This document shows positions 1 to 64,000 of a DNA stretch of 64,000 nt, piece by piece; position 1 is the stretch's first letter, and each line of letters starts with the position of its first letter. Location: assembly GCF_003073045.1 (NCBI RefSeq), contig NC_037594.1:29252737-29316736 (forward strand). Direction: 5' to 3'. Source of the stretch: Pomacea canaliculata. Its lineage: Eukaryota > Mollusca > Gastropoda > Architaenioglossa > Ampullariidae. The notes beneath the pieces are model-generated. The model had not been told where the DNA came from. It worked only from the letters and a program-made list of their open reading frames with translations, and did no database searches. The position numbers and the translations under genes were made by a program.

Positions 1-2557
1 GAATCGAGCTTCATTGACAGTTTCTCGAAATACCAACGCAGACAGTTCGGGTTTCAATCACTCGTGCTCGAGCTTAAAATTATTCTCCAAGGACATCCTC
101 AGCAAACAGTCTGACCTGTTTCATCAGTGAACCACAACAGCTTTGCCACGAAAACATTTTACGACAAAGAGATAGAAATTAATTCTTTGTATACATTACT
201 TTATTCCATGCTTTAGTCACTTTTTTTGGACTGTTTGACCGAATATGAAAGATCTCACTTTATACTTATTCCCAAAATCTGGTGAAATAATTCTGACATT
301 GCAGTTTTTCCCTGGATTTTTTTAATTCCTTATTTCCCATTAATAAATATCTGCTCTCTCGTTGGCTGCGGTCTCCATTCATTTAAGAAAAACGAATTTG
401 TGGCAATTCACGCATTTCTAAAAAACAGAAATAAAACTTGGTTATACACATTGTGATAACAAGAGCTGTGTGTTCTGTTCCCATTCTACTAATTTTGAGT
501 GTAATCTATTGTCTCCCTTCTTAATTTCTAGTTTGTAGGCGAACTATGCATGTGTAAGCTTATTCTAAATTAGAATACATTGCGGTTAAATTACTGTCTA
601 AATTCAGTAGTTCAACAACTCATTGATGCAATGTGATTGTTGATGAGCAAATAGTTTACCGAACACTGAGCTAATTTACTCATTTGATTGCCGGGCTATA
701 TTTAGAAAAGCCTGTGAAAAGTTTGGGCTCAATTTCAGGGATAAAACATGCATTTTTATATATCCGTGCCACCAAATTCCCCCAGGAACCTGACTTTTCT
801 GCAAAATTTAACAGATGTGGTTTTATCTCGCAACAACTCACCCAGCTAAGGCTGAAAGGAGAATACAGAGTTGTGTGGTGACTGCCAAATATCCAGGGGG
901 AGCTAGTAATGACACTGGGGGCTGCAGGGTAATGACCGAGCTGCTCACACTCCAAGTCGTCACGCATGGTAATTGACTTTGAGTCTCGCGAGGAACAGCA
1001 AAGTTAATAGAAGCTCCCTTCGGGAATGGTCCTTCTCTCGTTCTTGTCAACCGATTTGGACACTGTAGTAAAAAAGTACTCTGTTGTAGTGGTTGTATTC
1101 CAGATGTGTGTGTGTGTGGTCTTTTTTTTTACTTTCCCGTTATTTTTCTATTTTGGTTGTAGAGGTTGTCATGGCTGAAAAATCGCTGAACTCTTTAGTG
1201 TACAGTTTGTCAGTATCTTTAGGTGAATGAATAACAAAAAAACACGGAAAAATATTTCTCTATTTATCTCTTTATTAAAAAAAGTTACATTTTATTTTAC
1301 TAAGGGATTCTCTATAGTCTTAATCCTGAGGTAAATGGCCTCTTGTTTGGAAACAGAACGCATTGCAAACAATCAATAAACTGATTCACTTACTTTTTAT
1401 AACTTGCTTTTGTGTGCGGTGGCGAGCCTGCATTTAGTGAGGGTCGTTTTTCTTCACTGCGAATGCTTGTTATGCCAGATATAATCTTGCTATTAAAGAG
1501 CTGAAACCGATAACGATTAAATAAACGATTGGAACATTGTAATTTTTCTTCAGATGTTGTATCCCTTTATATTTTCCAGCAGCCAGTGCCCCAGGGGAAG
1601 ACTTTGAAGGCGTGTCACGTGGATTGGACAGAGGTTTGCCGGCGAAACTTTGTGTTGGCTGCGGCCTGACAGATGGCAGCTGGAGTGTTACTTCTGATCC
1701 TCTGATGTCCTTCTGATGTTGCCACTGTACGCATTAGTGTCAGTTTGTCTGACCTCTGGCTCCCCACAGTGAGTTCATCTGAGTAGACGAAAGAGCGACT
1801 GGGCCCGTCACTAGCTGAGGTAATTAACCTCTTCTTCTCGCCTTGATAACAGGTTTTCTTTCCTTTCCTTTCCTTCCCTACTTCTGTTGGGGTCCAGTCG
1901 ATGGCGCAGTCTCTCAGCCATGGGGGATACACGGAGACTCGTTTACTGGCTGAGATTTTCATCTCTGCTACTAGAACCTCCCCGTGTTTTTTGTTTACTT
2001 TTCGGGGTCCTTAAAGTATCATTTGACACGGTGTGCCGTCAATAATGACTACAGCGGCTTTCAGACAATAACTTAAACTGACTGAAATGTATGCCTATCT
2101 GCATAACTGCATGATGAAACATTTCGTTTTTTTGTTCACTAATACAAAAAATTTTATTTTCAGGTTTCAGAGAAACATTGAAAGCTGTGTCACAATTTTA
2201 AAGCATTGAAGAGACTCATTTTAAACATCCTAGTTGACCTGAAGATTCTCAGCAGTGTCTAGATAACAAAAAAGCACAACAGCAAATGTCACTTTTAATC
2301 TCCAAAAAATCGGATTTGTAGAGTGTATTATGAACGAATATATCGCCCTATGGAAATACTACAACCTTTTGCAGGACAAAGTGTTTGTCCAAGAAGCATG
2401 AAGCTAAGACAGTTCCGCTGTTCTTGTGAGTTGCTTTAGGATTTTCTATCAATCCATCTAAAGACGGACTGGTTACTTGAAATGCCAGTCTCATCATGGT
2501 CCCTGTGCTGTTGTGTGAAGAAACTTCACTCGGAAGCTAGTCAGCAGGGCGTCAGGA
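1..2557. other. Gene-free upstream stretch
   Basis: I see no convincing coding exon, RNA gene or named repeat here. The stretch is AT-rich with a short TG run near 1104. It probably holds the promoter and 5' untranslated exon(s) of the receptor gene that begins at 2558, but I cannot place them. The short open frames in it, such as 1615-1962 on the minus strand, have no domain, no splice partners and no family resemblance. Confidence 0.5.
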
Positions 2558-5500
2558 ATGAAGGACCCAGACCCTTATCTTCTGGAGATGCTTGACGCTG
2601 GAGGACTGGAATCGAAGAACTTCTCCATCAACGATTTTCTGAAAGTCTATCTGGAGTACTCGCAAAACGACCACTGGTTCAGCCAGTCGAGAGAGATGTC
2701 GCTCATCTCCAGCTTCGTCGTCCTCATCGTCCTCGGAATCGTCAGCAACGGGCTCGTCTGCTTCATCATCGTCAGAAACGGCATTCGCAAGTCCAGCCGC
2801 AACCTGTACATCATGAACCTGGCAATCTCGGACATCCTCACCTGCGTATTGTGTAAACCGTTGTCCGTGGTGCGCCTGGTGCTCAAGAACTGGACGCTGG
2901 GCGAAGCCCTCTGCCGGCTGGTGCCGTCGCTGCAGACTATTTACGTCTTCGTGTCGACCCTGACGCTGGTGGCGTTGGCCGTCGACCGTTATCGAGCCAT
3001 CACCAACAACGGCAACAGCATCCGCTCGCGGCTGTCACCCTGTTACGGCCTCGCTTTCATCTGGATCGTCTCCGTTGCCATCGCCGCGCCCTTGTTCGCT
3101 GTGCACCACGTGGAGGAGGTCAAAGGTTTCAATGGCTACGTCATGTACAATCTGTGTCTGGAACAGTGGCGCTCGCCAGTCTCGCTGACCATCTACACGG
3201 TCATCGTCCTTCTTCTGCAGTACCTCTCCCCTCTCCTCGCCATCGTTACCCTTCATCTTCTCATCGGCAGCTTTCTGCGCATGCACATCACGGATGGGCC
3301 CTACCGCCTCCCGGATCTGCATCTCCGTCGAAAGCGGTGCCGACATCGAAAAAACATGATTTTGTTGACGAGCATGGCGGCGGCATTTGCTGTTGCATGG
3401 CTGCCCTTAAACCTCGTCAATACACTCGCCACCATTTACCCTGAGGTAATTAATGGGGGAGTTGAAATAGGGAGTTAGATTTTTTTGTCTAAAATATGTT
3501 TTGTCTTTATTTGAAATAGTTGTGAGAGTTATTGTTTTCCTTTGGGGTTTTTTTCTTGTTGATTTAAGCGGATCTTTTTGTAACGTAGAATTTCAACCCT
3601 AACCCTAACCCTCATTGAAACAATGACACATTAATATTGTTCTTACTGTTTCGCTCTTACTGTTCTTGCTCACAGTTATAGCGGGAAAGAGGGGTACATC
3701 TGAAGACTAAAAATGATCAGAGTAAGAAGAAAGAAAACCTAGGCAAGACGAAAAAAAGAAAATCAAAAAAATGAACAAAGTTTGCAACCGTAACGCAGAA
3801 AAAAAAAATTGAAACGTGTAGGATATCCCTCCAAGATCTTCTTCGTTTGATCATTTACTTTTGTTCTTTTATTACTTTGTCCATCTTGCCGTCTAGCTCG
3901 CTGATTGTCTTTCAGTCGAGTTATCTAGTTTGTATTTAAATATTTTTAAGGTAGGCTGAAAATGACCGTTTTCCTCAATGGATGAATATTCTAGACCTTT
4001 TTCTCCAATCGAATCCTCGAACATCCCCTGAAGGTAAACTAGGTATAAGTAGGTTCTGTAGATTCTCTCTGCAACAAGTGCACCAGCACCAGTCATGAAT
4101 TAATGGCTTTTCTGCCTTTTAAGTAAAATTTTGATAAGGATAAAGGCTGAGGAAGTATACAGCTACAGTAAATCGTAATTTTAACATCACCGTTTGTGAA
4201 TGGGTATTAGTCAAGGGATGAGTGAATGAAAATAGCTGATGGCTAGAGTATGCAGTCCAGTTAGTCACTATAACAGTATAAGCCAATGAAAACCTTAGCT
4301 ACCATCTTAGTTGCCGGTAGGTAAGTTTACAATTCGTTCCAGAAAACAGATTTACTTTGATTTGAGTACAGCCTTCTTTTTTTTCTGTCTCTATGCCAGT
4401 AGAGTTTGGTCACCTCATGTGTCACCTCATGTGTCATGCTAAAGGCTTCATGAAGGCCACAATGAATCTCTCGGACTCCCTGTTGCAGAGACACATAAAT
4501 CCCTCTCGTTCTCTGTTTAACATATCTAGGTCGGAAAGTCATCCACGCGCAAACACCAAAGCCCCTCCACTTCCGATTCCCCGTAGGGACTGCGTGACAA
4601 AAGTCACGTGAGTCACGTTAGCGACAGTACTTCTCTCTCTCTTTGTGCCAAAGAGTTATGGCTCACCCTGGGGAGCATGCGCAGCCAGCTACGGAAGCTG
4701 CTTCCCTGGAGCTGTCTGTCAGCTAGGGGAACTTCCGGTCTCCCCCTGTCACCCAGACAGCTTTTCTCAGCTCGCTGTCATAAAAGAAACAGCGTTAGCG
4801 TGAGACTGTCCATTGTGTTTCAGGAAAAAAATTGATAACATATTAGAACCGATTTATTTTCAGGTGAAACGGCATCATGTCAGCTCTTTAGCCGCAGCAT
4901 TTGACATTTTTCTGACAAAAAAGAGGATAGTGTCCAATTATGCCCATAAAATGATGGGATTTCGTGGACGAATGCGGAATTGACTTTTTGAGGTTATAAG
5001 CGGCATTCGTGCACTGATTCCTATAAAGTCGCATTTTATGTTCACAGTATTTCACAGTTTCGCTTATATTTCCTGTTTACTTATAAATTATTTGGAAGGG
5101 ACCTGCTATTTTAAATAATCGAAAGCATCTACCATTGTACATTCCGTTTAAAGCACATATTTTCTTTGAATCACAATTGTCGCCTTTATCAGTCATATAT
5201 TTTAGGTTAAGAGCTACTTTCACCAAATGTTTAGTATTTGCTTGCATTAATAAAGTAGTAATTTCTGTAATGTTTATGATAGTTTCTAGGCTGGTAGTTC
5301 TGGTTAATACATTCAAAGCACGAAGGATATATATATATTTCTCTGTGTGATCATATATATCTGTTCATGTTTGATTTGTGCATATTCACAGAAAGGCTAA
5401 AAGCAATATATCTGTGTGTATTGTTGCAGGTTTTTCAAGGCATTGATTTTCCTTTCATCCACGCCCTGTGCATTCTTGTGTCCTTCACCTCAGTCTGTAT

Positions 5501-19690: not shown

Positions 19691-21264
19691 TCAGAAAACT
19701 TCTAATACTCTAAAATGATTCTCAATAGATTTTGGGTCATCTTCGAAATGAATTTTATCAGTAATTTTCATGCCTTCCTTGGTAAGTTGTTCAACAAATC
19801 TGCGCTTCTCCTTTCCAATCCATGCACGCATTTCATCTTTCACCTGGTATGGTGTAACATGCACACTGACTGTGATCGGAAGTGACGCAAAGCATTTTAA
19901 CACTGATCGGTCAGTGATCCATGTGTTACTTCCACCACTATGGCCACCATCCAGCCATGTCATGGCATGCACTCGAGGAAGGAGTGTGGAACGATCTTTG
20001 CATGCAGCCTCTATTTCAAACAACAACTGATTCAGAACAACGCATCCTTTACTGAAGCCAATCAAATGGATAGGGATGTCTGCCACTGAGCTGTTGAAAG
20101 ATGTTTGTCCATCTCCGACAACCTTGTCTACACATGCTAATTCATATTCTCTAACTTCATGTAGATTATCAGAGTCCTCCACAGAACTTTTCTCAGAGCT
20201 TTGCAAGCTTTCTGTTTTCTCAGTAGTGCACAAGTCCTTTAATGAAATAAGACCATTCTTTATAACTTCATGATAAATAACAGAAAGAGTTCTCCAGGCA
20301 CCAAAATCACGAGAATGTTTTGGGCATCCAAAATCGTTGGATTCTACAAACTGACTGTAGACACTAAAAGTGTTGAGATGCATGGACTGTGGTTTGAAGA
20401 CCATCACCATTGCTGTCGGGAATCTTTTAGCTAGGAGTTCAGCAGTGGCAATGCTGTTCCATTGTACATATCGACCATTGTCACGGTGATTCATCATGTT
20501 CTCTGGGTAATCCTATTTTGAAATAGAATAATTTTTTTTTTAAGTAACAAGCATATAGGTATTAGGGAAACAATATAACAGAACTACTGTAAAATACACA
20601 CATATACATTAACTTCAAAATGATGCCATCATCTTGCTGTACTATCAATAAGAGTAAGAGAGATAGAGGGAAAATGCATGACAGATTAAGCTGTCAATAA
20701 GAACCTACAAGAAAAGTCTACAAATACACACCAGCACTGGACTTATTATAAGCTCATTATAAACACTGGCAACAAAAATCATATTATTTGATTATTTGGG
20801 ACGCTGCTGAAGATGGCTTTTCAACACTAACTGGTAGAAAGTTGCATTACCATTTCTATTACTGTATGACAGTTGTTTAACAATTCCATTACTATAGACA
20901 ATACCTGTACATCTCCACCAAAGAAGATAACGTGCTCTGTTGCATCTGATCTACGGCCTGCAACAATGACGTCAGTGTTTTTTTCTATGTTTGCAGCTAA
21001 ATTCTTTAGGCAAATCACGTTAATCTGTGATTTTACTTCAGACATTGCGGCCTGACATAAAAACTGATAATGGCTGTTTATCAGAGTTTGTTCCCAGCCC
21101 TTGTTATACGCTGGCTTGCAAAAATTATGATGAGCACCTGTCAATCCTGGATTGACTTTGTCTGTCACTTTGGACTTAAATGCAAATGATATATATACTA
21201 ATGGTTTTGTGCCAAATAGGACAGAAATGCAGAGCAGACGACAAGTGCTCAGAAAAAGAGACAT
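19691..21264 (-). CDS. C2orf69: C2orf69 homologue (mitochondrial alpha/beta-hydrolase-like protein)
   Basis: Two exons: 20905-21264 (120 codons) and 19691-20512 (273 codons plus stop), joined in phase 0 (CAG|gtattg and tag|GATTAC); about 393 residues against 385 in human. The N-terminus (MSLFLSTCRLLCISVL) is hydrophobic and suits a targeting or signal sequence. The shared family blocks are HVIFFGGDVQ, DFGAW, IHLIGFSKGCVVLNQLLFE, WLDGGHSGGSNTW, HVTPYQVKDEMRAWIGKE and SIENHFRVLEVF. GFSKG has the G-x-S-x-G form of a hydrolase nucleophile elbow; the Asp of WLDGG and the His of ENHF are candidate partners. Human loss causes a mitochondrial multisystem disease; the substrate is not known to me. I chose the ATG at 21264; five further open codons upstream have no ATG. 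It is divergent with MMADHC. Confidence 0.93.
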
Positions 21265-42500: not shown

Positions 42501-45500
42501 TGACTTACTGTCCTGTACACTTCTGTTATCCAGGATATGCAGGACAAGTGGTGACATAATTATACCTTTTTCTGTGTGTTCTTAAAACAGTTTCCACAGC
42601 CAAGTGACAGGGTGGAGGAATGCCACTTTGATCTGCAGAATAAATCTTTGTGGAAGAGCATGGCCAGTGAGCTGCTAGTATCAGTGTGCTGCAACCCACT
42701 GTGGTCCTCTCCCCTACCGTTATGTGCATCCTCCATTGATCCTCCAGTGGTGAGCAATGACCTTGAAGTGCAGTTGCGCAGACTGGTGGCCCAGCATCGA
42801 CAGGTACGTTTTATTATAGCAGTTTGACCAATATTTTTTAAAGCATTGTTCCCACTTAACAATTGACAAAATGAATCCTCTAACAAGTCTTTTCATAAAC
42901 TGAAGAGCCACCAGAACTGGGAACTATCTTGTAAGGTCTTGCTTTGTTTAAAGGACCAGGGACTGACAACACAGTGGGATGACCAGCTGAGTTACATTTT
43001 GACTCCTGCCTTAGCAGCACGTGAGACAGAAATGGTCACAGGTGTGTGCAGTGTTAGATTTCAGTTTTTTTCCAAATATTGAAATATTTTAAATCAAAGT
43101 AAAATTTGAACAGTTGTACAGCTATTTAGTCAAAGCCTGTGCAAGGGATACAACTTTAATGCAAAAATCAGTAAATTGAATGGTGAATTTGAAAAAGGGT
43201 AATATTTCAATAACAAGAAGAAAAAGAATACCACCTTTATCTGGGACTCCAGAAGATTCTCAATATTGTCTGCTATGTGTCCAAAGCAGTAGCATGTCTC
43301 TTCTGCATCTAGGAACTGTTGTTTCAATATCCCTTATGAGATTACAACTTTTGCAGGTGTCGCTGATAATAAAGAATACCAGGATGCTGTACAGCAGGCT
43401 ATGCCAGAGGGGCACCATTTCAATGCCAAATGCATTCACGCCAATCACACAAAGGCATGCAAGATTTTTCAAAATTGCCTTATGTGAGTATGAGTTTTAC
43501 CCCTCCATTTTTACAATCATCTTCTGGGGCTGTGTTTATGAAGTGAGGGTAAACTCTTGCCCTGGGGTAATATGGGAACTCTAGAACAGACATCTTATTT
43601 TCAAACTTATAAAACAGGGCCCAGACCCCACAGATATTGTTTTACCCCTGTAGCTGTAGTTATAAAGTGGTTGGAAATGTGTTCTAGGGTAAAGAAACAT
43701 GAAGCAACAGAGTCCAAAGGGTCTGGGCATTGCTTTATAACATTGAAAATTATGCTTTTCATGGAGTTTTTTACAATCAGCTCCAGGCAGGCTCAGAGAG
43801 TGTTCCAGCCCACGACATGTTGCTCATCATCGGCGATCTCAATGCCAAGGTGGGAAGTGACAACACCTGCAGGGAGCATGTCATGGGCAAACATGGAATC
43901 GGAACCATCAATGACAACGGAGAGAGACTGGCAGACTTTTGTGAAGAAAACAACCTACTGATTGGAGGCACACTCTTCCCACACAAAGACATCCACAAGG
44001 CAACATGGACATCACCAGATGGGATCACAAAGAACCAGATAGACCATGTCATCATCAACCGAAAATGGAGGAGCTCACTTCAAGATGTTAGAGCCTACAG
44101 AGGAGCAGACATTGCCAGTGACCACACTCTTGTGATAGCCACAGTTTCTCTGAAGCTGCGTCGATCACGAGGAAAACAGGCACGTCAGCAGAGAGTGGAC
44201 TCCGGCAAACTAAAAAATCCAGCCACCGAAAGGGCCTTTGCTATGGAAGTAAAGAACAGGTTCCAGGCACTAGGAGACCAACAAGAGATGACCTTAGACG
44301 ACTTCAATCGAGTCTTACACGAATTAGGAGAGAAAATACTGGGCTTCCAACGGAAAAAGAAAGAACAGTGGATCAGAAAAGAGACATGGAAAAAGATAGA
44401 AGAGAGAAAGTCAGCCAAACACAGAATCAACAGCACCAGATCTGAACGCCTGAAGGAACAACACAGACAAAGATATACAAAACTAAACAAAGAAGTAAAG
44501 AGGATGACAAGTACCGACAAAAGAGACCACATAGAGAAACTGGCAGATGAAGCAGAAAATGCAGCAAGTAAAAATGACCTGAAGACACTGTACAAGATAA
44601 ACAAACAGCTAAACAACGGGTTTAAGAACAGTGATGTGCCAGTGAAAGACGTGAACGGTAATGTCGTCGAGGGAGAGGCAGGAAAACTACAGCGCTGGAG
44701 GGAACATTTTGAGTCGGTTCTGAACAGACCAGATCCCCCTCAGCTTGCAGACATCCAGCCAGCAGCTATAGACCTTGACATCTGCACAGACCCACCAAGC
44801 CTGGAAGAAGTGACAGCAGCAGTCAAGACAATGAAGAGCGGCAAAGCACCAGGGGCAGATGGAATAACAGCAGAGATGTTGAAAGCAGATATAAATGTGA
44901 CAGCTCCCAAGCTGACTGAAATCTTCAGGCAACTTTGGGAATCAGGGCAGCTCCCTGTTGCGTGGAAGACAGGGCTCATCTTCAAGTTACCCAAGAAAGG
45001 AGATCTTGGAGACTGCAATAATTGGAGGGGCATAACACTTCTTTCCCTCACCAGCAAGGTCTTCAGCAAGATTGTTTTGTCAAGACTGACGGCAACTCTT
45101 GAGAAAGACCTCCGACCACAGGAAGCAGGATTTCGTCCTTGGCAATCCTGCTCCGAACACATCTTCATTCTGCGACAGAGTCTGGAGCAGAGCAACGAAT
45201 GGAACACACCGCTGTACATCAATTTCATCGACCTGGAGAAGGCTTTTGACAGCATCCACTGCAAGTCCTTATGGAAGATCCTGAGGCATTATGGAGTCCC
45301 TGCAAAACTTGTTCAGGTCATTGCAATGCTGTACAGCGATTTCAAATCCCAGGTTGTCTGTGACACGGAGCTCACAGACCTCTTCAACGTCAGTACCGGG
45401 GTGAAGCAGGGCTGCATTCTGTCGCCGTTCCTCTTCATCCTGGCCATGGACTGGATCATGAAGACTTCCACCGACAGTGAGAGGAGAGGGATCAGATGGA

Positions 45501-47141
45501 CCATGACTATGACAGCAACAACAGCGCTGGAAGACTTGGACTTTGCTGATGACATTGCCCTGCTGTCACACCGCCACCAAGACATGCAGGAAAAAACAAA
45601 TACCTTCTCAGAAACAGCTGGAAAACTTTGCTTGAAGGTCAGCACAAAGAAAACGAAAAGTATGAGAGTGAACGCCAGAGTCCAAGACAGCATCAAACTA
45701 AATGGAGAAGAGATTGAGGAAGTTGACAGTTTCACCTATCTTGGGTCCAAAATGTCAAACACCGGGGATGCGGAGGTGGAGATTCGAGCCCGACTGACGA
45801 AAGGCAGCCAGGCCTTTGCCTCACTCAGGAGCACATGGAAGGCAAAAAACATCAGCCAGAAGATCAAGCTGAGAATCTTCAAGTCAAATGTGATCAGCAC
45901 CCTCCTTTACGGATCAGAATCTTGGAAGATGACCAAAACCATCAGTAACAAGCTTGAAGTCTTCCAAAACAGATGCCTCAGGCGCATACTTAACATCTTT
46001 TGGCCAAATACCATCACCAACGAAGAACTCCACCGAAGAACTGAAACCGAGTCCATCACCACGCAGGTTCAACAAAGGCGTTGGCGATGGATTGGACATG
46101 TGCTCCGCCAGCAGACAGCAGACCTCTCCAGAATCGCCCTGCGATGGACTCCAGACGGCCGAAGAAAACGAGGCCGCCCAAAGGAAACTTGGAGAAGAAC
46201 AGTGGAAAGGGAGATGAAGGGAAAGGGCTGGACATGGGGTCACCTAGAGCGGTTTCAGCCGATCGACATCGGTGGCGGACTCTGGTTGAGGCCTTATGTG
46301 CAGCCTGATGCACGAAGAGGAATAGATAGATAGATGGAGTTTCCCATTTTGAAATGAGGAAGTGACTTGCTTTTGCTTTATAACTATGGCTTCCAGTGAG
46401 AAAAAAATAGTATCTTGTCATTAATGTCCAAGTATGATAAAGCCAAGCACCAAACAACAGAGGTTAATAGATGCATTATTTATATGGCTATGCTCTTGTT
46501 CAATGGTGGGCAATTAATTTTCCCAAGGGGCTGCATGAGAAATTGGGATGGTTTTAAAGGGCCGGACTAATATAGTTAACTCAGTTTTACCCAATACTGT
46601 ATAGTATATATACTGGCGGGCGGGCCGGTCAGAGACAGGAGGCGGGCCGGCCTTTGCCCAGGTCTGCTCTTGTTGATGTAACACTTCCTAGTCAGATGCA
46701 GAAATTGTGATACAAAATTCATACATCTTTGATCAACCGACTTAGTATCCATTTCAATCTCATGTCACATGAAAGCATAATATCACAAAGTGATAAAACA
46801 TCATCCATCATCATTAAAAACACATAAATGTGTATAACCTACAAACATATTTTCTGAAATATTGTTTTAAATGCTTTAAAGCAGGAATAACCAGTGTTTC
46901 ATATGCAAAATCTAAGGTTAATACTTAATCAGATTGCTGGTCTCTCATATGTAAATGACAATAATCCATTTTTTTAATGATGCAAAGCTGTTTTTCTTTA
47001 AAACCATCTTGTGAAATTGTCACTGAATAAAGGAGTCATTATCTATTCAGGACATCTGTGAGTGAAATCATCAACTGTAAAGGAGATCCGATCCAGCTGG
47101 CAGTTCGTGAAAACAAAGACTTACAAGGAAACTCGTGGTAA
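39562..47141 (+). CDS. CEP76: CEP76 homologue, last five exons only
   Basis: CEP76 is a centriolar protein that limits centriole reduplication. Exons: 39562-39682 (HPYITIGCVFNHQSF), 42600-42803 (PSDRVEECHFDLQ...PPLCAS-like block and QLRRLVAQHRQ), 42954-43041 (DQGLTTQWDDQLSYIL), 43357-43483 (MPEGHHFNAKCIH) and 47051 onward (SEIINCKGDPIQLAV). Phases agree at every junction, and the order matches the C-terminal third of human CEP76 (about 210 of 659 residues). No exon for the N-terminal two thirds (C2-like and transglutaminase-like parts, for example a HAWVMT block) is visible upstream in the window. The last exon leaves the family frame after QLAV (about 2 bases lost) and reaches TAA at 47139-47141; further small losses would be needed to follow the usual C-terminus. 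It is either a truncated duplicate or a gene broken by assembly. Introns 1 and 4 carry LINEs. Confidence 0.85.
39985..41530 (-). mobile_element. RTE-type LINE, 5'-truncated and inactive
   Basis: On the minus strand the reverse transcriptase is readable in pieces: PVKDKNGKTITSD, KVMKSGKAAGLDVIPPEALK, LVKLPKKGDRSQCNKW and further down LEDLDFANDI, where the usual FADD has become FAND. Several frame changes and stops separate the pieces. The 3' end reads GGAGTAGCAAGGACTAAACTA on the minus strand. That terminus is shared with 51456-51680 and 57338-57380. It lies in the first CEP76 intron present. Confidence 0.85.
43770..46333 (+). mobile_element. RTE-type LINE with long open frame and 9-bp target duplication
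   Basis: ATGGAGTTT flanks the element on both sides (43761-43769 and 46334-46342), giving exact borders. It is 5'-truncated inside the endonuclease domain and ends in a short GATA repeat (AATAGATAGATAG), as RTE LINEs do. It sits in the last CEP76 intron in the sense orientation. The intact reading frame and clear duplication point to a recent insertion. Confidence 0.92.
43770..46333 (+). CDS. RTE endonuclease/reverse transcriptase, N-terminally truncated
   Basis: One uninterrupted frame runs to the TAG at 46331-46333; about 854 codons belong to the element, and the frame extends 13 codons upstream into the intron by chance. Order: the C-terminal half of an APE endonuclease (IGDLNAKVGSD, FPHKDIHKATWTSPDG, NQIDHVIINRKWRSSLQD, GADIASDHT), a Lys/Arg-rich linker, then reverse transcriptase (KSGKAPGADGITAEMLK, LPKKGDLGDCNNWRGITLL, GFRPWQSCSEHIF, FIDLEKAFDS, GVKQGCILSPFLF, DFADDIALL). 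The two catalytic Asp of FADD lie near frame residue 606. The C-terminus has RRWRWIGHVL and RRKRGRPKETW. The missing endonuclease N-terminus means this copy should not be able to nick DNA itself. Confidence 0.9.
46501..46666. mobile_element. hAT-type MITE, 166 bp
   Basis: Bounded by an 8-bp direct repeat, CTCTTGTT (46493-46500 and 46667-46674), the size made by hAT transposases. The ends are an imperfect inverted repeat (CAATGGTGGGCAA and TTTGCCCAGGTCTG). The interior has the GGGCCGGACTAATATAG and repeated GGGCGGGCCGG blocks seen in many animal hAT non-autonomous elements. It has no coding capacity. It lies in the last CEP76 intron, 160 bases after the RTE insertion. Confidence 0.85.
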
Positions 47142-48859: not shown

Positions 48860-49256
48860 AAAAGACCTGCTTTACTTTTCCCGCGGATCTTCACGTGTGT
48901 TCTCTCTCTGCTGCTGTGTCACCACTACATGGACAACACACATCTCTCTCACGCTAGTGGTACACGGTCACCTCATTCACACGAGGACACAGTGACTGGA
49001 CAGCTTGGGCACTACGTCACCCGCTGTTGCTGTCCGTCTCGCGCTGCGCGACGCTCGCGCGACCAAGCGTGGGGTGGAAGGGGATGCGGGGTGGAGGAAC
49101 CGAGCACTGTGAGAGCTAAACAAGCGCTCCCGCTAAACTATAATAAAACTCTGTGGCTAGCATTGTCGTACCTGTGCAGAAATGTAATTATCATATGAGA
49201 AGACTACGACCACGTGGTGACATCACACCAGGAGACAACTCTAGCATAACCATAAA
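48860..49256 (+). promoter_or_regulatory. CpG-rich promoter region of sepiapterin reductase
   Basis: A local CpG-rich block (for example CGCGCTGCGCGACGCTCGCG near 49052) in AT-rich surroundings, ending about 130 bases before the start codon. No TATA box is obvious. Confidence 0.45.
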
Positions 49257-51097
<1,841 letters not shown>

Positions 51098-52387: not shown

Positions 52388-54301
52388 AGCACAAATTTAC
52401 ATGATGTAAGATGCCTTGATAAGTACTGAGGAACATTTAATGACTCAAATTCTTACAAAGTTTTTGTAATGGATTTTTTCTAGTCTTGGAGTCAATTCAA
52501 ATTATGCATTTAATTTTTGTTTAAATGATTTGGCTTTATTTTAACATTTTAAACTGTTCACTATTTCTTGATTTTGCATTTATATTTAATATGTATCAGG
52601 GATAGGTTTTGGGATGCTCGTGGTCATTTTGAGATCTCTAAATGCAAACGTTTGAAAGACAAACATGCTTATTAAAATCAGAAATAGTGTACCCTGTGCT
52701 GTGTATTTAGTTCACTTGTTCATTGTACTGAGTGGTTGTATGGTGCATATATATGTATACTGATGTCCACAATATTTTATAGCCTGTATTCATGTTTTTA
52801 ATAATTTATATGAAAATGGTAGGATACTCATAAAAAGTTAAGAGCCAATTTTAATTTTGGGGTACATTTCTCATGATTGTGCAAGTCATGGGTTGCACAA
52901 ACACTGTTCACTAGTTGTCTAGTAGGATGGGACACTGGAGAAAATTGGGCTAAAGCGAATATGTCCTCAAGAAGACATTTAACAATAGTCAACTGTGGCC
53001 ATGCTCTGGGATGGTGGCATACCTAGCAGAGAGGTGTATCAAGGGGATGGAGGTGTCATTTTGCCTTTCAATTAATTTTTGAACTATTTTAGACAACAGC
53101 AGCGCTGAACAACACTGGATGGCTTCAAATGGTGGACCTCTGTCCATACATCCTTGTCTTAGCTAGTGGAACTAGAAGAACCCTAGTTTATTAATGCTCC
53201 CTACACACCAAATGTGTCAGTACTGGCAGAGACAGAACAGAAACCTATAGAACTGATGATCAAGGAGAGGACAGTCAACTAATACCACAGGATGCAGGGT
53301 CTCTCATCAGAACAACCAGTCCAACTTTCACTCATAGCACCGCACAGACTGAAAAGGTCACACTGGAATGGCTCCTCTCTGAATAAAATACTTAAAACAT
53401 AGCTGTTGGGTGTTAAACCTTTAATATGGCAGCCTCTATCTTCTGCTGCAGCTTCTCCCACAGTCCAGCAAAATTTCAGTTTCTGAGGCTGACTGGTGTA
53501 GAATACATGCTAAAGCAGTAAGGCTGGTAAACAACATAAATACTTGGCAATATGAAGGCAACATAAATATATAGTTTTTAGCCTATTAATGCTAATTATA
53601 CAGCTTACAACAATGCACCCTTATTAATTCCACAACAAACTCTCAGTGCAGTTAGTATTAAACTTATCTAAAGTCTGTTTTTAAGAAGTTCAATTATGCT
53701 CTTTGTCATCAGTCCTACATAAATGAATAATAAAATGTTTCCGATGCTAAAAGTCCAAAGACCAGTTTAATGGAGCTTGAATTGTCTGCTGCTACAAAGA
53801 ACTTTCATGACCATGCAGGATTTATTTCAAACCTCTTTTAATTGTTATTTCTTGATCAACACTACATACAACCACAGATGGTGACACATCTCAAGCTTTG
53901 TGAAGAGGATTGGTGTTTTACGCTGAATCAGCAACGAAGGCTATATCATGGCATGTCAAGCTTTGTAAAGACTAGAGACAAATTGATTTTCTTTAAAACA
54001 CAATAGGTAAAATTTCTTTGTACCACAGTGCTAATGTGCATGAGATATGCATGTAAGAAATAAATGCTTTAATATGTCTATTTTACTATGAGAACCATTA
54101 AAAAGGTTGACTTCACTCAAGTTTAATCTTGATACATAAATGGCATCAGGTTAAGATGTCCCCACTGTCATTATACATCATTTGAATGAGAGCATTTCTA
54201 GGTAGACAGCATTTCAATTTCATGTATTTAGTTTGCTTAGTGTGTAAAAATGACTAGGATTCCTGAATGAATCCAGACCTGATTAGCACAAAGTTTATGT
54301 C

Positions 54302-57300
54302 CTAATAATCGTCAGGTTCAGGTGGAGCATTAAGGTAAGGTACAGATGTAAATAAAGCAGAGCAAGAGGTGTTGAAGCTGCAAGGAGAGTACTCCAGTTC
54401 TAGAACAAAGAGGAAATTGTCGCCTGGTATTGCCATGGTTGGAGCTGGTACATAAAGTGTTACCTGAGGTCCTTTCTGAGGCCAGTAGCGACCTACATTG
54501 AAGTCATTTATGAAGGCCTGGCCCTGTCAGACAAACCAAGCAACCATTTTGGACTGTGAGCGCAAATGGAATTTTTGCTAGGTGTGGCACTGACAAACAT
54601 TACAAAATTTTAAAGCCCATTTTTGCTGCAATATCAAAAAAAAAAAACCTTTATCAATAAAACTTACTTTGCTTTTTAAAAAAAAAAACCCAAATCACTC
54701 GTAGTTTGCTAGTTTTGGAACAAACGTTAAGACAAAAAGATATAAATGACCATGATTACCTTGACCCATGGCCTCATGTCAAGGTTTGTATCTCGGGGTT
54801 GATCTGCTGTATTAGGAATGTTGATTTTTCCCTTGTATATAGATGGAGTTTCAAGAGTACCAGAAATTGAAACTTCAGGAGCAAATCTAATCCAAACACA
54901 ATTCACCAGAATAAAGCATCTGTTTATAGATCTAATCTTGCATGCTCACAATTGCAGTAGGAATGCATTGTGATAAAACTGAAAAACAAATCATAATGTT
55001 TTAATGTATGTAATGCCATGTCAAGTTTGCCAGTGGTCCCTATGGTTCCAACAAATTCACCCTTACTGAAAGTAAAACAAAGAAAAAGCCTTCAAGCTCA
55101 TAAAACTGCTTTAAAGCAGAAATCTTTCTTAATTATTCAGATATTTAAGTACCACATAAGTACTACTTAAGTAACTGCATTAGCTATTACAAACTTAATA
55201 GGATTCAGATTAATATGCAATGATGCTTGTGTTTTAAATAACCCACCTGTTAGACCTCTCCACTTTCTGTATGTATTCCAAATGTATTGGGTATATCTCC
55301 CACCCTGACAAAAGATGGCCATCAAGTGTCACATTATAGATGATCCCCTGTTAGACAGAGATGTACAGACTGAAAAATGGGTAGATAGTGTGCTGCTGAA
55401 CATGCACGATAATGAGCTTCTAGGGAGACTAAAAAATTGATGATGGTAAGTATAAGTAAAATATTTCAACATCCTACTCTTTACTCGAAACACACAGACA
55501 GAGAGACAGTAAGATACACGGTACTTGTTCAGATTACTTTGCTCATGAAGTTCATTGCCACGCCGTAGCCCACACGTCCCTGATTCTCCACAAATATGTC
55601 CAGATACTGTCCTGCCAACCCCATCACCTTCACCTGAATGATTTCATCTCTATACAACATGCCCATCGGTTTCTGTAAGAAAAGAAAACTGTGTAGAAAT
55701 CAATGGTATGAATCCTACCCAAAAGAAGAACTTCAAAACTGTAAATAAAATCTCATTCTCTGCTGGAAAATACTGAAGGATTAACATGATTGCCCAAGGT
55801 TTTATCTCTGCAACCATAATAAAAGCAATTACACAAATAAGATAAGGATCCAATTAACTCAACATTCTTCATGTATGCTTCCAAATATAGTATTTGACCA
55901 AAATATACTCAACAAAACAATCTTTATCATGGCTATGAATGCATTCATCATCATAACTTTCAGGTGGGTTTATCACAGCTGGAACACCCAACTAAAAATT
56001 GTAAGGTTAAAAAAATAAAAGTTACAATAAATGACTAGGAAGATTTACTCTTTACCATAAAGCATTGATTGTAATATGTGATTAAGCATCTAGACAGGAA
56101 ATAAATAGACAGGAAATAAATAAACAGTCATGAGGAAACGAAAGGCTACAAATCAGCACCAAATTACTTGAGAAGCCAATAATCACTGTTTTGCAGTATT
56201 GCATACATGCAGTCCTCAGCATTTTCTGTGGTGACTGATACCAAAATGAGAATTTCCATCACATTAATTCTATCCAAATTTCAAAAAAGCGCCAAAGGCT
56301 GCTGTTTAGTAAATTTCTTCACAAGCTTTCTTATCTCAATCTTTTCTTTCCTGCTGTGCCATGGATTTTGCTGATGATGTTTGCACTTACGTGTGTCAAA
56401 CAGAAAGACATCACAAGGGAAACCGAGTGTGTGGGTGTGTGAGGGCTGGTTTTAGAGTTATAAAGTGAAGTGAAGCGAGTTTGGTGTCATGTAATTTTTT
56501 CCGATGATTATTATGAATACAAAGCACACAGAATCCTAAACTTCATACTACAATTCTGCATATGACATTGGAAAATACTTCAAATGTTGTCATGCATGAG
56601 TACATGTCCACCTGCTAATGCGCACGCATACATGCAAATATATCCTATTGATGAATCATATTTGCAAATAAAGTTGAACATTTTAATATAAATTCAATGG
56701 AATTCGCTTATTCTATATGTAATGTTTGTACACTAGGAAGGAGTTTTAATAATTAAAAGGAGTCCAGAGACAGCAAAGTCCACAATGAGTTTCACTTCAA
56801 ACAAGCATATCAGGATGGAAGGAATTATAAAAAGTTTTTGTTAACCAAGACTTGAAAATTCACAGCTGTGCAAGAAAATGGATCTTTGTAGGGGTAGGGG
56901 TGGGTAGAAGGTATATATGTATGCATGTAAGTTTCAGCAAGTGAAAACTTCTTTGATGAGAAAACATTTCTGGAAGAATTAATACAAGAAATTTATGACA
57001 TACACTGACATTAGTGAACTACTAGACAAACAATATTCAGTAATTATGAAAGATTTAACCTAATACATGAAAACTAGAAGGAAGAAAATATCACAGCATT
57101 TTGAAAACAAAAAGTACCTGATTCACCATAACATAACCTCGGTCCCGCACACCTTTTGTGAACAGCTCTCCATCAGCTATATTAGTCTCCAGCTTATGCC
57201 GATATAAGATGTACCCATAGTACTACAACAGATAAACAATAAAGATTCTTAAACTGTGTTTTACAACATGAATATAAGTATTTCATAAATAATTAGAATT

Positions 57301-60300
57301 CCAGGTCTTGTTTTACACCCTCGGTAACATTCCTTTTGCAGCCCTGTGCTCCTCGTAGAGTAACAAGGACTAAACTAAAAAATCACTCCTTTTAGCACAC
57401 AGCAAAAGGATGTATGAATATATCTAAAACATCTATCTCTGAAATAAACTGAAATCTGTGCAACCCTAATTCAATCCTTAGATATAAATCCATTTAACAT
57501 TCCAAGAACACATTTATATGTATATATAAATGCAGTGTAAGGAAATGGCACTATTTAGTAAGGTACTGTTAAAATGCAGCTGTTAAACGGAAGACTCTGA
57601 TCAAAAGCTACATGAAACACTTTTCTTGAATGGGTATGCACTGTAGCCCTATGGTCAAGGAGCTTGACTTTCAACGAGTTAAAAATTACCTGATTTTTCA
57701 GCCAATAAGGCAAGAAATGTAACACCCAGAAATTATTCTAGTAATGAAAGCTTGCTTGACTCACATGTTTGATCTTTTCATCCTCCATAGCCAAGGGATA
57801 TGTTGAGAATATGGGCCCTTCAGGACAAAGTGTAGACAAGGCATCTTGCACAGTGGACACCTGTCAACAAGAGAGAAGGCATCTAATCAAATTTACCCAA
57901 TCACCCACACACACTCCCTCCCCACATTCACATGACACAATCACAACCTCTATCACCTCAAATTTTATATTTATTCTCAGCTTTATTGTAATATTCTCTC
58001 ATAAGCGTGATAAAGTATGCAAGTTAAGGAAATGTAATCAAATAACTAATGTTTTCAGAGCATATTGCCAGTTCTGAATATCATCTCAGTCAACATTTTC
58101 TTCTTGTTCTGCATTTAGAAATTATTAAGATGGGGTCATATTAAGCCATTATTTAGTAACTGTAACAAGAGGCATCAATAATGATAAAACTTACAAACAT
58201 CATCTCTGTTTGACCGTAGCTGGCTTTCAGGGTGTCAGGAGGAACGGGATAAGGTGGCAACTCCAGATACTAGAAAGAATATTTAAAGTTGGTTTGTTCA
58301 CAATTGATCATGATAAAAAAGCACAACCACACAGGACTGAAACCCTAAAAGAAAAAATATTTGCTACTTAAGCCCACCTTTGGCCATTCAGTGTATCAAT
58401 TTACTATCAAAAACCAATCTTGACAAGTAAGATTTTAATTAGTACAAAACATTAAAATAACTGCTTAGTAAGATGAAACAAGCACTCAAATAAATGCATA
58501 AGAAAAGCAGATGTAAGTTTTACAAAGAAGCCATGGCCATATGCTGACTCTGCTACCTTTGATACAATGTCTCTTATGGCATAGTACTTTGGAGAAACAT
58601 CGCCTGATTCATTAAGCGGGGCATCGTAGTCATGACTTGTGGTGGCAGCCATATACGGTGGGTCATCACCCCCACCTGAGATGCCAAAGTTTGTACCTCC
58701 CTCAAACATATACCTGTCAAGTTGAAAATGTGTGAGAAAATACCAATAAGACTGACCAAAGTGCCATTTTCCCCCTTACCTGTATTTTAATAAACACTTT
58801 GTAATATGCAGAAGGGTTCCACTACCTGCTTTCCATGGCCTGATTGTGGGAATAGAAAATATGACAACCGAAATAAGCTTTGGAGAATGCAAAGAGAATT
58901 TCATGCAGAAATCAAAAAGTTTCCATCAGAAATCACATGCTTGGTTTGCTACCTTAGACACAATGTCTCTAACTGCATAGAATTTTGGAGTGACATCGCC
59001 TGACTCATTGAGTGGGGCATCGTAGTCACGACTGGTTACAGAGGTCATGTATGGTGGTTCATCACCCCCATTCCAGAAGCCAAAGTTTGTACCTCCCTCA
59101 AATAAAAACCTGTCAGTTGAGAAAATTTTTGTTTTCAGAGAATTACTAGTGAACCTGAGATACTGTCGGAATTTTGAATAATATTATTCACTTTATTTTA
59201 ATCTAAAGAGAGATTTTAAACAATTTTAATTAGTTTCCTGTGGGCAAGAATAATGAAAGTTGTATAATCACAGCTTTTTGCATGTGATACTGGCATGAAA
59301 TATGGTTAGTGCTTGCTTCTATCAATGTTCAGTTAATACTGTAAAAACTGCATTCATAAAATTATTGTATAACAGCCAAAGCCATCTCCATAAGCTTTCA
59401 TGCACATGCACATGCACACTACAGAATTTCCATAATTATAAAAGTTGCCCAGATGTCAAAATGCATTTTCTAAAAATATATCCACTAGACAAGACATTTA
59501 CTTTAACCAGTACTGTAATAAGCTACTTACAGGTTTACATTAGCACCATAAGCTAATATCAGGTCTAATGACTTGGCCACTGCTGTTTCACTTTGCACTG
59601 AATGTGGATGACCCCAGTGATCAAGCCAGCCAGTGTAGAATTCTGAGTTTACCTGCACCCAGATTGGCAAGGTCTCATGTACACTAATGTAGAAGATATT
59701 TATCCTGCTAAAATAAAGAAAATACCTAAAAGGGTGGAAATAAAAAAATAATTTAAAGAAAGACAAGACAAGTAGGGTTAGAGTTGAATCCTGTTGGATT
59801 ACATTAACCTTATGTATGTATGTCCTTTGCCTAACTTAAAAGAGTCAAGTCAGGGGGTGGGGGAAATGAGTTCAGTCAACTCAAAATACTTTTAACATAT
59901 TTTCAGATGTATTCTTAAGATATTGTTGTATTAGCAGTAGAGGTTGATGTTCAATGGGGTGGGGAGGGAAGCAGGTCCAGGTTAGAAATGAGAATGCAGC
60001 TATTAAAACTGTAAAACTGAAGGTTAGAAACTTATTTACCAGAGGTCCTTTTGGCTCATAGTCCCTCTGTGCCTTAAATGCAGCTGCTGGATCATCTGTA
60101 ATATTCCAGATTTTTAAACTGGGTCAGAATTTTGTAAATAAATTTACAGCATCCTATTGCACAGAACAGTGATATAGCAATATAAAATATATGTTTCAAT
60201 AGCTTATACTTTTCTGAGTTATCTGGAAATACTTCTCTGCCTGTGCTCTTAAATTTAAAGTATCTTAACTAAAATGCACTTTATAGATGCCATCTAATTT

Positions 60301-63300
60301 ACTTGCTTTAAGTGGTTGAAAATATGTTACAAGGATTGTCCTATCTACTTATTAGAAGTGTTTAGAACTCAAACTATAACACTTGGCAGCAAAACTTATA
60401 AAACAAGCTTTTCAAAAAATTTATTAAACAGCCTAGCGAGATAAAAACTTTTTTTTCAAAAGGATCATACTGCAAAACTGAAGGATTATGAAGCTATAAT
60501 ACACAGATTGTCAGATTCCAGAATGTGAAATGAAGTTCCTAATGGCTTTTTTTTTTATTTTAAAGATCAAATATTTATTGATCCAAGAGGGCCATAAAGA
60601 TGAACTGCAAATGTTGTCTTGAAATTATATCTGTTAAATGATACCTGGTCAACTGAAGACGTAAATTCTATCTTTACTAATCTTTTGATGATGATTCTAA
60701 AAGCTTAACTAAAATGAAAGTTGTCCCAAACACCAAAGTTGCCGTAAATACTCACATGTGACACCAAAATCAACTGTGGCATAGGACTCATTTATTACAC
60801 CACATCTTAGGTAGGAATCAGTATTGCCGTCTGTAGTATACACAACAACATTTTCTCCCAGCACAAAACGAACTTTCTTGTACAAGAAACGCAGATAGTC
60901 ATAGTCACATGCAAAGTAGCTGCCATATTCATTTTCAATCTGAAACACATGGAGCTTTTTCGATGAATCTCTTAAAATGAAAAAAGGAAAAAGGAATATT
61001 TTTGTCTGAAATGATGGTTCTCACTGTTTTCTTCCTATATATTCTCTTCTCCATGTAAACTTGCTCCAAAATAGAACTTAAAAATAAAAATCCTGGAAAT
61101 TACACAAAAAACTCTCAAATATTATGTCTCATCATTCCTTTTTGTCTATAAGTGAAAAGTCTGTAAGTATTCTTTGTACATGTTTGTATGACAAATATTT
61201 TGACTAAATATTCAGGGGAAACAAATTAATGAACATCCTTACATTGTGCATAAAGAAAAAAATTTAATGTAAAACCATCATGCATAAAGAACATTGTCCA
61301 CACAAACATTTCTGAACTTGGTCTGTTCATGGTACAGACAGACTTAATGTCAATAAAGGGACTACCATAGTAGTTGTGAGGATACTATTGCTAATATTTA
61401 CTGTCTTGCTAACAAGGACAACTAAGGTAAATTGCTACTGTCAAAAATCTTAATCCTTTAATAGATAATGTTCAAGAGATCCACCATTAGTATTGGCTGA
61501 AGACAGTCTGCTTTATATATGTTACAAAGAGATTTTTTTTACATAAATTTAAAATAATACAAGTTCATTTTAATTTACTACATACAAACCACTTAAAGTT
61601 GGTAATTTGAATATCTTATTTAAAACACTCATGTGAAAATGTACACATACCTGTACCATAACAATAGGACCACCATTTTCATACAAGTAGGGCTGGATAG
61701 TTGTCAGAAGAACAGAGTACCATTTGTCAACACGAGCAAGGTAAACTGAAATTACAAAATCTTTCCAAATGACTCAAGCACATAAAAACTTAATTCACAT
61801 AAATAAAGGTATTACAATATTTGGAAATTTAGAGAATTCTGGTATTTTGCGTTAGCACTAAAATTTTTATAAAATAATAATGAGAAACTATTACAACAAA
61901 AGATAATGAGAAATTCTTCAATAATAGCTAATTAAATCCTGATAAACTCCAAACAAAAAACATGAAATATTGAAAGTAAAACAGCCCTTACTTGGGTCTG
62001 ATGTTCGCACAATCATATCTTTATTGAAAGTAAGCAGCCATGCTGGAAGTCCTCCCTAACAGATAAAATCATATCAGCAATCTCTGCATCTCATATCCCC
62101 AAGTTTATCGTTTAATCTTTTCCAACAGCTATAAAACTAAAAACAACTATAAAACTGACAAATCTTTAAGTGAAAAATTGTACTAAAGGGACACATGTAT
62201 ATATACATGCATGCACACACACATACAAAATAAAATGAATGGTAAATTAAGAGTTATTTCATATTGTTTTCAAAATCTAAATGGTTTATAAATAAAAAGA
62301 GAGTTGTATCATTTGTTAATTCGGCATCATTAACTGGCTTCACATCATTTTGGTTTCCACTAGATTTTTGCTTCTGATGCTTCCATTAATTATGCACAGT
62401 CTCATGCTTCAGTAAAACACACACATATATGTATCCTACAATATTGGATTAATAATATTACATATTGTAAACGTACAAACTCCACTTCTGCACATATGTA
62501 TGGTCCAAGTCGCAATAACACAAGCAGTCCAGCCTCATGGGCAAGGGAGAGAAATTTTGGAAGATCAACAATGCCAGTGAAAGTGTAATTATCAGGCACA
62601 ACTTCATGCATGTTCCATGGGACATATCTATCAACATAAAACATCTCATTTTTTTATTACAGCATTACAACTTAAATTTCTCAAAGCTAGTTAAAGTTAA
62701 AAAAATATTTTAATCCAATCCATAATATGTATAAAAATATTACCTCATTAATCTTTCAGGGGTGTCTGATAATATAGTAGTAGTAACAATAAATGTATTT
62801 ATATAGCTTTTGGATGTTGTGTTTTCTCATAAGCTCTTCTATCTTTTACTTTCAATAGAGTATTTTATAAATTACATGATATTCAACACATGAATTTACT
62901 CATGTACTTTAATGTAACTAAGTGTTCTGAGAATGTTTAAGGTAGACTATAAAGGCTAAGCTATGATGTTTGGTAGATTAGGTTTAGATTTTGGTGGATT
63001 AAAAGCAGTTTTGACTTATGATATTTAAAAGTTACTATAAATTATCAGAATATAAGCCCACTGTAAGTTGAAAAGTATTGATCTATACCGTCGGGGTGTC
63101 AATGCATTAATATATGAGTCCAAATGCTCATTAGGCAAATCCATAGACTTTTGTGACATGGATTTGACTTTTTGCTAATCTAAGCCTAATGTGTGAAAAA
63201 GTTGTATAGTCTATAACATCTTTAATATGTCTGGGTATCATGATCTTTATAAAAATCTGACTGGTGATGAGTGTAGGCCTTTATCTCAAGAATGGAAGGT

Positions 63301-63922
63301 GCATGCACATTCACTCAGATTTGGGAAAATTGTATAGATATATCCAGTCATCAGGAAAAAGCCATTTGCATTCTGCTAAATCTTAAAAAAAAAACATTTT
63401 TAATGAAGTTATGGGATGAAGTATAGGAAAATTTTCATCTTGACTGCCATGGATCAGAGTGGAAGAACATACGTTTGTACAGCGTTTATTCCTGCTGCCC
63501 TCATTTTCAGAAATCTGTCTTTCCAGTAATAAGGATGCACTCGGAAATAGTGAATGCTTCCGGACACGTAACGGAACGGCTTCCCATCCTTTAGGAATGT
63601 CGAATTATTGTAGTCAATGGTGAAAGTATTGCCAACCTGTAATTAATAGTCATTAATTAATGCTCAATTGTGTGGTCAGATAATCACAAGTGCTTATTTT
63701 CTCCACTTTTACGTTCAGTATTCAATACCACTTTGAAAGGTCATTATCTTTACATTTAAATTTTGACATGATCTTTTCCTAAAAAAAATACCTAATATAA
63801 GACTTAATATAAATCTATGCGGCAATGGTGTATGTCATGCAGTACAGACGAAAAAATCTTACAACTGAGACGGCCAAAAACAATGGAAGGTAAGCGATGA
63901 ACCCATGTAGTGTAACAGCCAT
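54302..63922 (-). CDS. GLB1: Lysosomal-type beta-galactosidase (GH35, GLB1/GLB1L), complete
   Basis: Removes terminal beta-linked galactose from gangliosides and glycans. Sixteen exons plus one duplicate: 63863-63922, 63473-63636, 62477-62627, 61992-62055, 61651-61745, 60756-60939, 60040-60095, 59531-59652, then 58953-59109 or 58557-58713, 58195-58269, 57765-57860, 57118-57222, 55538-55672, 55247-55347, 54760-54886 and 54302-54523. With one duplicate used, the sum is 1914 nt, a 637-residue protein (human GLB1 677, GLB1L 654). Exon 1 is a signal peptide ([19 protein letters not shown]). Catalysis: acid/base Glu in [12 protein letters not shown], nucleophile Glu in [13 protein letters not shown]. 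The C-terminal part has [22 protein letters not shown] and LELEYSPC. Oddity: the usual RPGPYICAEWE reads [11 protein letters not shown] here. The tail ends soon after the last beta-domain, as in GLB1L. Which vertebrate paralogue is closer is open. Confidence 0.93.
57338..57380 (+). repeat. Minimal RTE 3'-end fragment
   Basis: CAGCCCTGTGCTCCTCGTAG and AACAAGGACTAAACTA match the 3' terminus of the RTE copies at 39985 and 51456. About 40 bases are present, in an intron of the beta-galactosidase gene. Confidence 0.6.
58557..58713 (-). other. Beta-galactosidase alternative exon, copy B
   Basis: A 157-nt exon with the same phases, acceptor (gacag) and donor (AAG|gtagca) as copy A. It encodes [20 protein letters not shown] through [11 protein letters not shown] to DIVSK. 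It has Tyr at the human Tyr306 position but replaces FWNG with ISGG. It is 39/52 identical to copy A at the protein level and fully open. Confidence 0.9.
58953..59109 (-). other. Beta-galactosidase alternative exon, copy A
   Basis: A 157-nt exon with acceptor gacag and donor AAG|gtagca. It encodes [20 protein letters not shown] through [11 protein letters not shown] to DIVSK. Entry is after two codon bases and exit is at phase 0. It keeps the FWNG segment like human GLB1 (YWNG), but has Phe where human has Tyr306 by my hand alignment. Confidence 0.9.
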
Positions 63923-64000
63923 ATTGTGGTTCAATTTTTTTTTTATAAATTTCGTTTGGCAACAATTGATTACATTGTGATAACCTTAGACCGCCAAGTC

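Follow-up and report, generated by a model that had tools for sequence, protein, structure and literature searches.

A complete gene for a beta-galactosidase of the GH35/GLB1 type lies at positions 54302-63922, on the minus strand, of the Pomacea canaliculata window (the whole stretch of 64,000 nucleotides that was analysed, on contig NC_037594.1, positions 29252737-29316736, of an assembly of 440 Mb and 24 contigs). The gene model was built by hand with GT-AG introns and comprised 16 exons and one additional copy of exon 9. The exons, and the introns around the two exon 9 copies, were placed as follows:

63863..63922, minus strand: exon 1, with the start codon; the start matches P0001 and the N terminus looks signal-peptide-like by eye
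63473..63636, minus strand: exon 2, from the gene model
62477..62627, minus strand: exon 3, from the gene model; contains Val123
61992..62055, minus strand: exon 4, from the gene model
61651..61745, minus strand: exon 5, from the gene model
60756..60939, minus strand: exon 6, 184 nt; acid/base Glu182 (human Glu188); the corresponding block varies among oyster isoforms
60040..60095, minus strand: exon 7, from the gene model
59531..59652, minus strand: exon 8, 122 nt; catalytic Glu262 (human Glu268); last codon split after two bases
59110..59530, minus strand: intron 8, 421 nt, 5' of copy A
58953..59109, minus strand: exon 9 copy A, 157 nt; residues 299-351; the spliced product is P0001
58714..58952, minus strand: inter-copy intron, 239 nt, ordinary GT-AG
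58557..58713, minus strand: exon 9 copy B, 157 nt; open, AG/GT intact, phases as in copy A
58270..58556, minus strand: intron 3' of copy B, 287 nt
58195..58269, minus strand: exon 10, 75 nt, starting at phase 0
57765..57860, minus strand: exon 11, from the gene model
57118..57222, minus strand: exon 12, from the gene model
55538..55672, minus strand: exon 13, from the gene model
55247..55347, minus strand: exon 14, from the gene model
54760..54886, minus strand: exon 15, from the gene model
54302..54523, minus strand: exon 16, including the stop codon

The isoform carrying copy A was identical over 637 residues to P0001, catalogued as 'beta-galactosidase-like isoform X2 [Pomacea canaliculata]' and representing 4 sequences that cluster at 90% identity. 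Pfam domains of P0001 were Glyco_hydro_35 (PF01301, E = 1.2e-111) and the beta-galactosidase beta domains PF21317 and PF21467. Among 27 solved relatives of the predicted copy-B isoform, the beta-galactosidases 7kdv, 3wez and 3thc ranked highest; we take these to be mammalian GLB1. By naming practice, a protein isoform number points to at least one more isoform at a locus, and we infer that isoform X1 of this locus carries copy B. A fragment search with the copy-B protein did not recover that protein among its 28 matches (the top one 56% identical), and scoring of the copy-B region gave 36 matches, with P0001 at 78% and the others at 66% or less; in both searches, clustering at 90% could mask a copy-B entry. 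Comparison with Rfam returned nothing at the gathering score within 54001-64000. Elsewhere in the window, an open reverse transcriptase frame of 876 codons (43703-46333; RVT_1, DUF6451) has the appearance of a non-LTR-type element, which may be young. Positions 2519-3478, 19691-20512 and 49245-49799 hold pieces of a GPCR of the rhodopsin type, of a C2orf69 gene and of a short-chain dehydrogenase, respectively.

Each copy of exon 9 has ...GACAG directly before it and GTAGCA directly after it, the 6-nt donors being identical. The coordinates, 157-nt lengths, phases, acceptors and donors that a previous sequence-only reading had given for this pair were reproduced base for base by the splice model. 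As it had also proposed, both copies are open and 75% identical in protein (40 of 53 residues, the common split-codon Leu counted), with 125 of 157 nucleotides in common; a blastn comparison within the window aligned 150 bases at 80.7% identity (E = 5.8e-36). Its frame arithmetic held equally: placed in the 16-exon coding sequence, either copy alone gives 637 residues, while inclusion of both leads to a stop after residue 354 and omission of both to a stop after residue 312. One of the two copies is thus obligatory for the full protein, because the frame breaks with zero or two. The stops of the zero- and two-copy messages precede several downstream exon junctions.

The published sequence criteria for mutually exclusive exons, as excerpted from a report on such exons, are comparable length, conservation of splice sites and frame, and homology (PMC3228551). 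The same excerpts state that, on the fly X chromosome, 0.56% of the exons that are not mutually exclusive have these properties too (PMC3228551). Copies A and B are neighbouring internal exons of 157 nt each at position 9 of 16; they have conserved splice sites and frame (AG/GT, same phases) and are homologous at 125/157 nt. On these grounds, exclusive use of A or B is strongly suggested.

A further match to copy B, at 70% identity and on the opposite strand, was exon 9 of a neighbouring gene, P0002, whose 16 exons were traced to an exact protein match. The two genes are arranged head to head with start codons 943 nt apart (63922 and contig position 29317602) and possibly share a promoter region. 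Exon 9 occurs only once in P0002, with a length of 157 nt; in introns 8 and 9 of that gene (391 and 267 nt), no relic of a second copy was found, the matches being 9-18 nt long with a best E of 0.041. Exon 9 peptides were placed in a tree of 27 sequences and 53 columns (26 chosen from the best 120 of 7928 proteins, and copy B). Copies A and B appeared as sisters (support 100/98), with end branches of 0.23 and 0.17 and a shared stem of 0.30. A weakly supported group (90/67) joined them to Littorina, Batillaria, Nucella and Babylonia, 16 of the 24 inner branches being left open. The listed proteins of these four snails have one exon 9, and clustering at 90% could mask a second isoform there. The tree and the single-exon paralog suggest that exon 9 was duplicated after the gene had separated from its paralog and after Pomacea had parted from these four genera. 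The lack of a second copy in related species had been named beforehand as a point against the pair; it is true of distant relatives only, and a lineage-specific duplication predicts exactly that.

Tandem duplicates in genome assemblies can be false, and two haplotypes or a paralog fragment could have been set in tandem at this locus. Nothing here indicates such an event, and we regard it as extremely improbable: 20% of the bases differ between the copies, their homology ends about 6 nt upstream and about 19 nt downstream of the exon, and neither is the paralog exon, which agrees with each of them at 108/159 positions compared with 127/159 between A and B. Moreover, a search of the species' own 440-Mb genome with copy-B DNA (E <= 0.001) gave three places in all, namely B, A and the paralog exon 9.

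Residues encoded by exon 9 were compared with the other 119 of the best 120 relatives among 7928 proteins, mostly from vertebrates and molluscs; human numbering was obtained by alignment, residue 262 corresponding to human Glu268. The 13 differences between A and B fall at residues 300, 301, 310-312, 316, 321-323, 326, 339, 342 and 345. A concentration of changes in the loop that reads FWNG in copy A and ISGG in copy B, noticed in the sequence-only reading, was borne out, with 8 of the 13 within 310-326 (p = 0.013, for an interval picked after viewing the data). The conserved catalytic surroundings claimed there are a different matter. The catalytic pair Glu182/Glu262 (human Glu188/Glu268) is intact, as in 119/119 top relatives, but copy A has Phe in place of Tyr306 and neither copy retains Tyr331. 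Human Tyr306 stacks on galactose, according to the available part of the structural report (PMC6566704); at the corresponding residue 300, copy B has Tyr, as have 118/118 aligned top relatives (1 gapped). Residue 326 (human Tyr331) is Tyr in 119/119 top relatives; copy A has Arg there and copy B has His. Both copies retain residue 328 (human Tyr333), whose hydroxyl contacts galactose as described in excerpts of a second report (PMC8100397). Copy B is without the loop Trp and Asn, retained in 94/119 and 116/119 top relatives, respectively; a Tyr-Met pair, its residues present in 118/118 and 117/118 aligned top relatives, occurs in B and not in A.

A further set of 62 matches from the two protein searches for copy B, many of them fragments or bacterial, had 60 Tyr, 1 Asn and 1 gap at position 306, and 49 Tyr, 2 His, 1 Met and 10 gaps or unaligned residues at position 331. 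Given the two His and the Met, loss of Tyr331 is rare and not unique. The changes at Tyr306 and Tyr331 make ordinary galactosidase activity less secure and leave GH35 membership unaffected. Outside exon 9, residue 123 (exon 3, hence in both isoforms) is Val, with Trp in 119/119 top relatives and, among the 62 further matches, 39 Trp, 2 Arg and 21 gaps. Val123 together with the loss of Tyr331 hints at an altered activity of the whole gene product. At 29 positions of exon 9, 90% or more of the 119 relatives share one residue (gaps excluded); both copies keep it at 19, A only at 2, B only at 2 and neither at 6. The ancestral exon 9 had probably already drifted from the family before the copies diverged. 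Each copy would later have lost features retained by the other, a pattern more in keeping with divided labour than with a working copy beside a dead one, the counts of 2 and 2 being small.

Divergence between the copies points to constraint on the pair. Comparison of A with B gave dS 0.63, dN 0.14 and dN/dS (w) 0.22, and substitutions were distributed over the three codon positions as 8/6/18, 18 of 32 being at third positions (Fisher p = 3e-4, on rounded counts). A codon model with the paralog as outgroup estimated w at 0.22 on the A branch and 0.22 on the B branch; w = 1 was not rejected for single branches (A, p = 0.28; B, p = 0.34), so that the strong statement on constraint applies to the pair. 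Parsimony assigned 6 synonymous and 6 nonsynonymous changes to each branch, with 8 changes ambiguous, and 6/12 nonsynonymous against an expected 0.757 gave p = 0.048 for each branch. Neutral evolution was simulated with 0.1 indels per substitution, 85% of them frame-shifting: after 16 substitutions, about 10% of the copies had remained open and spliceable with the frame unshifted, and after 32 substitutions 1.2-1.3% had done so. The earlier argument that a decayed duplicate would hardly keep its frame and splice sites is therefore fair but not decisive, since about 10% survive 16 neutral changes and about 1.3% survive 32. As a whole, the evolution of the copies fits two working exons.

It is against this background that the use of copy A alone must be weighed, copy B then being a still-open duplicate that is rarely or never spliced in. 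The catalogued protein that was found carries A alone, the codon test on the B branch leaves neutrality unrejected, roughly a tenth of the simulated neutral copies survive 16 changes, and B is the copy without the conserved loop Trp and Asn. We nevertheless consider this explanation unlikely in view of the pairwise w of 0.22 and of the survival of only about 1.3% of neutral copies at 32 changes. The donors of A and B are moreover identical, and it is B, not A, that has the Tyr-Met pair of nearly all aligned top relatives.

The reading that we prefer is that a tandem duplication of exon 9 occurred on the Pomacea lineage and that the two copies now serve as mutually exclusive alternatives, with a probability of about 0.8. 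A frame-enforced exclusive pair, as proposed in the sequence-only reading, is supported by the published criteria, by the constraint and by the name 'isoform X2', while the catalogued protein that the searches recovered is that of copy A, none with B being among their matches. The spliceosome would join exon 8 to the acceptor of A or of B, skipping the other copy, and messages with zero or two copies would be removed by nonsense-mediated decay. The choice would swap 13 of 53 residues near the galactose pocket, including Tyr or Phe at Tyr306 and the ISGG or FWNG loop, and the two resulting enzymes would probably differ in substrate preference or activity.

Several known bases of exclusion were considered for this pair. 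No competing RNA structure stood out: for the three intron pairs, the best duplexes were matched or beaten by 38, 80 and 61 of 200 shuffled sequences. Among the inverted repeats, one of 17 nt that pairs the donor of exon 8 with the acceptor of copy A (82%) was discounted, because the consensus sequences of donors and acceptors show some complementarity in every gene. We rejected steric exclusion, the inter-copy intron of 239 nt being long enough to avoid it, and also a minor-spliceosome conflict, both copies having the donor GTAGCA, which is ordinary when judged by the U12 consensus. Both donors are weak, tied as third weakest among the 16 of the gene in a simple frequency matrix entered by hand.

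The pair could also be mainly a switch of expression, in which double inclusion or skipping leads to nonsense-mediated decay and the protein difference is minor. Early stops in both wrong products would suit such a switch, and human cells are described, in the accessible part of one study, as degrading frame-shifted GLB1 transcripts by this route (PMC2631023). A poison exon has no need of the coding constraint observed on the pair, however, and A and B differ at pocket positions, beyond silent sites; we therefore hold this explanation to be quite improbable beside a pair of exclusive, protein-altering exons.

Isoforms of oyster GLB1 offer a comparison within molluscs. Those of Saccostrea echinata (P0029/P0032) and S. 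cucullata (P0030/P0033) differ solely by one homologous block, which corresponds to Pomacea exon 6, and those of Magallana gigas (P0036/P0086) differ by the exon 6 block and, in addition, by an insert of 17 residues within the loop where A and B diverge. This insert, GADYDAAGSKSGSKNLK, lies in the pocket loop of exon 9 in P0086, P0091, P0095 and P0113 (Magallana/Crassostrea), is absent from P0036 and was found with either type of exon 6. The oyster genes are like that of Pomacea in belonging to the same family and in having isoforms set apart by a single homologous block, which is what an exclusive pair would produce; unlike it, their block, seen at the protein level, is at exon 6 instead of exon 9 and is shared by two oyster genera. 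The oyster block is likely to reflect an exclusive exon pair, and alternative exons may have arisen repeatedly in mollusc GLB1. In a more distant animal, a 907-residue Branchiostoma belcheri model (P0028) contained four PTSYDYDAPL-type pieces matching the end of exon 9 and another doubled piece, which reflect duplicated exons joined during gene prediction or else an artefact of the model.

In Pomacea, one gene is probably able to make two pocket versions of a beta-galactosidase, and a functional difference between the A and B products is plausible. The broader proposal, that the choice between A and B gives one gene two enzymes of differing substrate preference and that mollusc GLB1 acquired splice-selected pocket exons repeatedly, is tentative, and we would place it somewhat below an even chance. 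If both copies are used, the gene would encode a glycosidase whose sugar pocket is selected by splicing and, with the oyster exon 6 block, mollusc GLB1 would form a natural series on the origin of exclusive splicing; the same series could show which pocket residues determine specificity.

Tandemly duplicated exons have been reported in about 10% of animal genes, as given in excerpts of a genomic survey (PMC9013439), so exon pairs of this kind are common. The Pomacea pair resembles the tandem-duplicated exclusive exons of Dscam, muscle Mhc, mrp-1 and other genes in length, phase, splice sites and homology; it differs from them in that exclusivity is here predicted from sequence, with no competing RNA structure standing out. 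Judged by titles and abstract openings, none of the papers listed on beta-galactosidase, molluscs, Pomacea, oysters and glycoside hydrolases describes exclusive exons in GLB1. The earlier statement that no such description was known is in line with this search, but oyster GLB1 isoforms already differ at another exon. The human GLB1/elastin-binding protein variant is an example of alternative splicing and nonsense-mediated decay in the same gene family; according to the part of the report available, it arises by exon skipping with a change of frame and, unlike the Pomacea pair, involves no duplicated exons (PMC2631023). The closest published enzyme parallel found, as far as the excerpted text goes, is COQ-2. 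Its exclusive exons, COQ-2a and COQ-2e, change two conserved residues near the substrate and switch the product in C. elegans, and a similar homologous exon pair exists in molluscs (PMC7434440). The COQ-2 switch was proven by exon deletion in C. elegans and the exon pair occurs in several phyla, whereas the Pomacea pair belongs to one lineage and its effect on function is a prediction; in both enzymes, the exons of the pair differ at strictly conserved residues beside the substrate.
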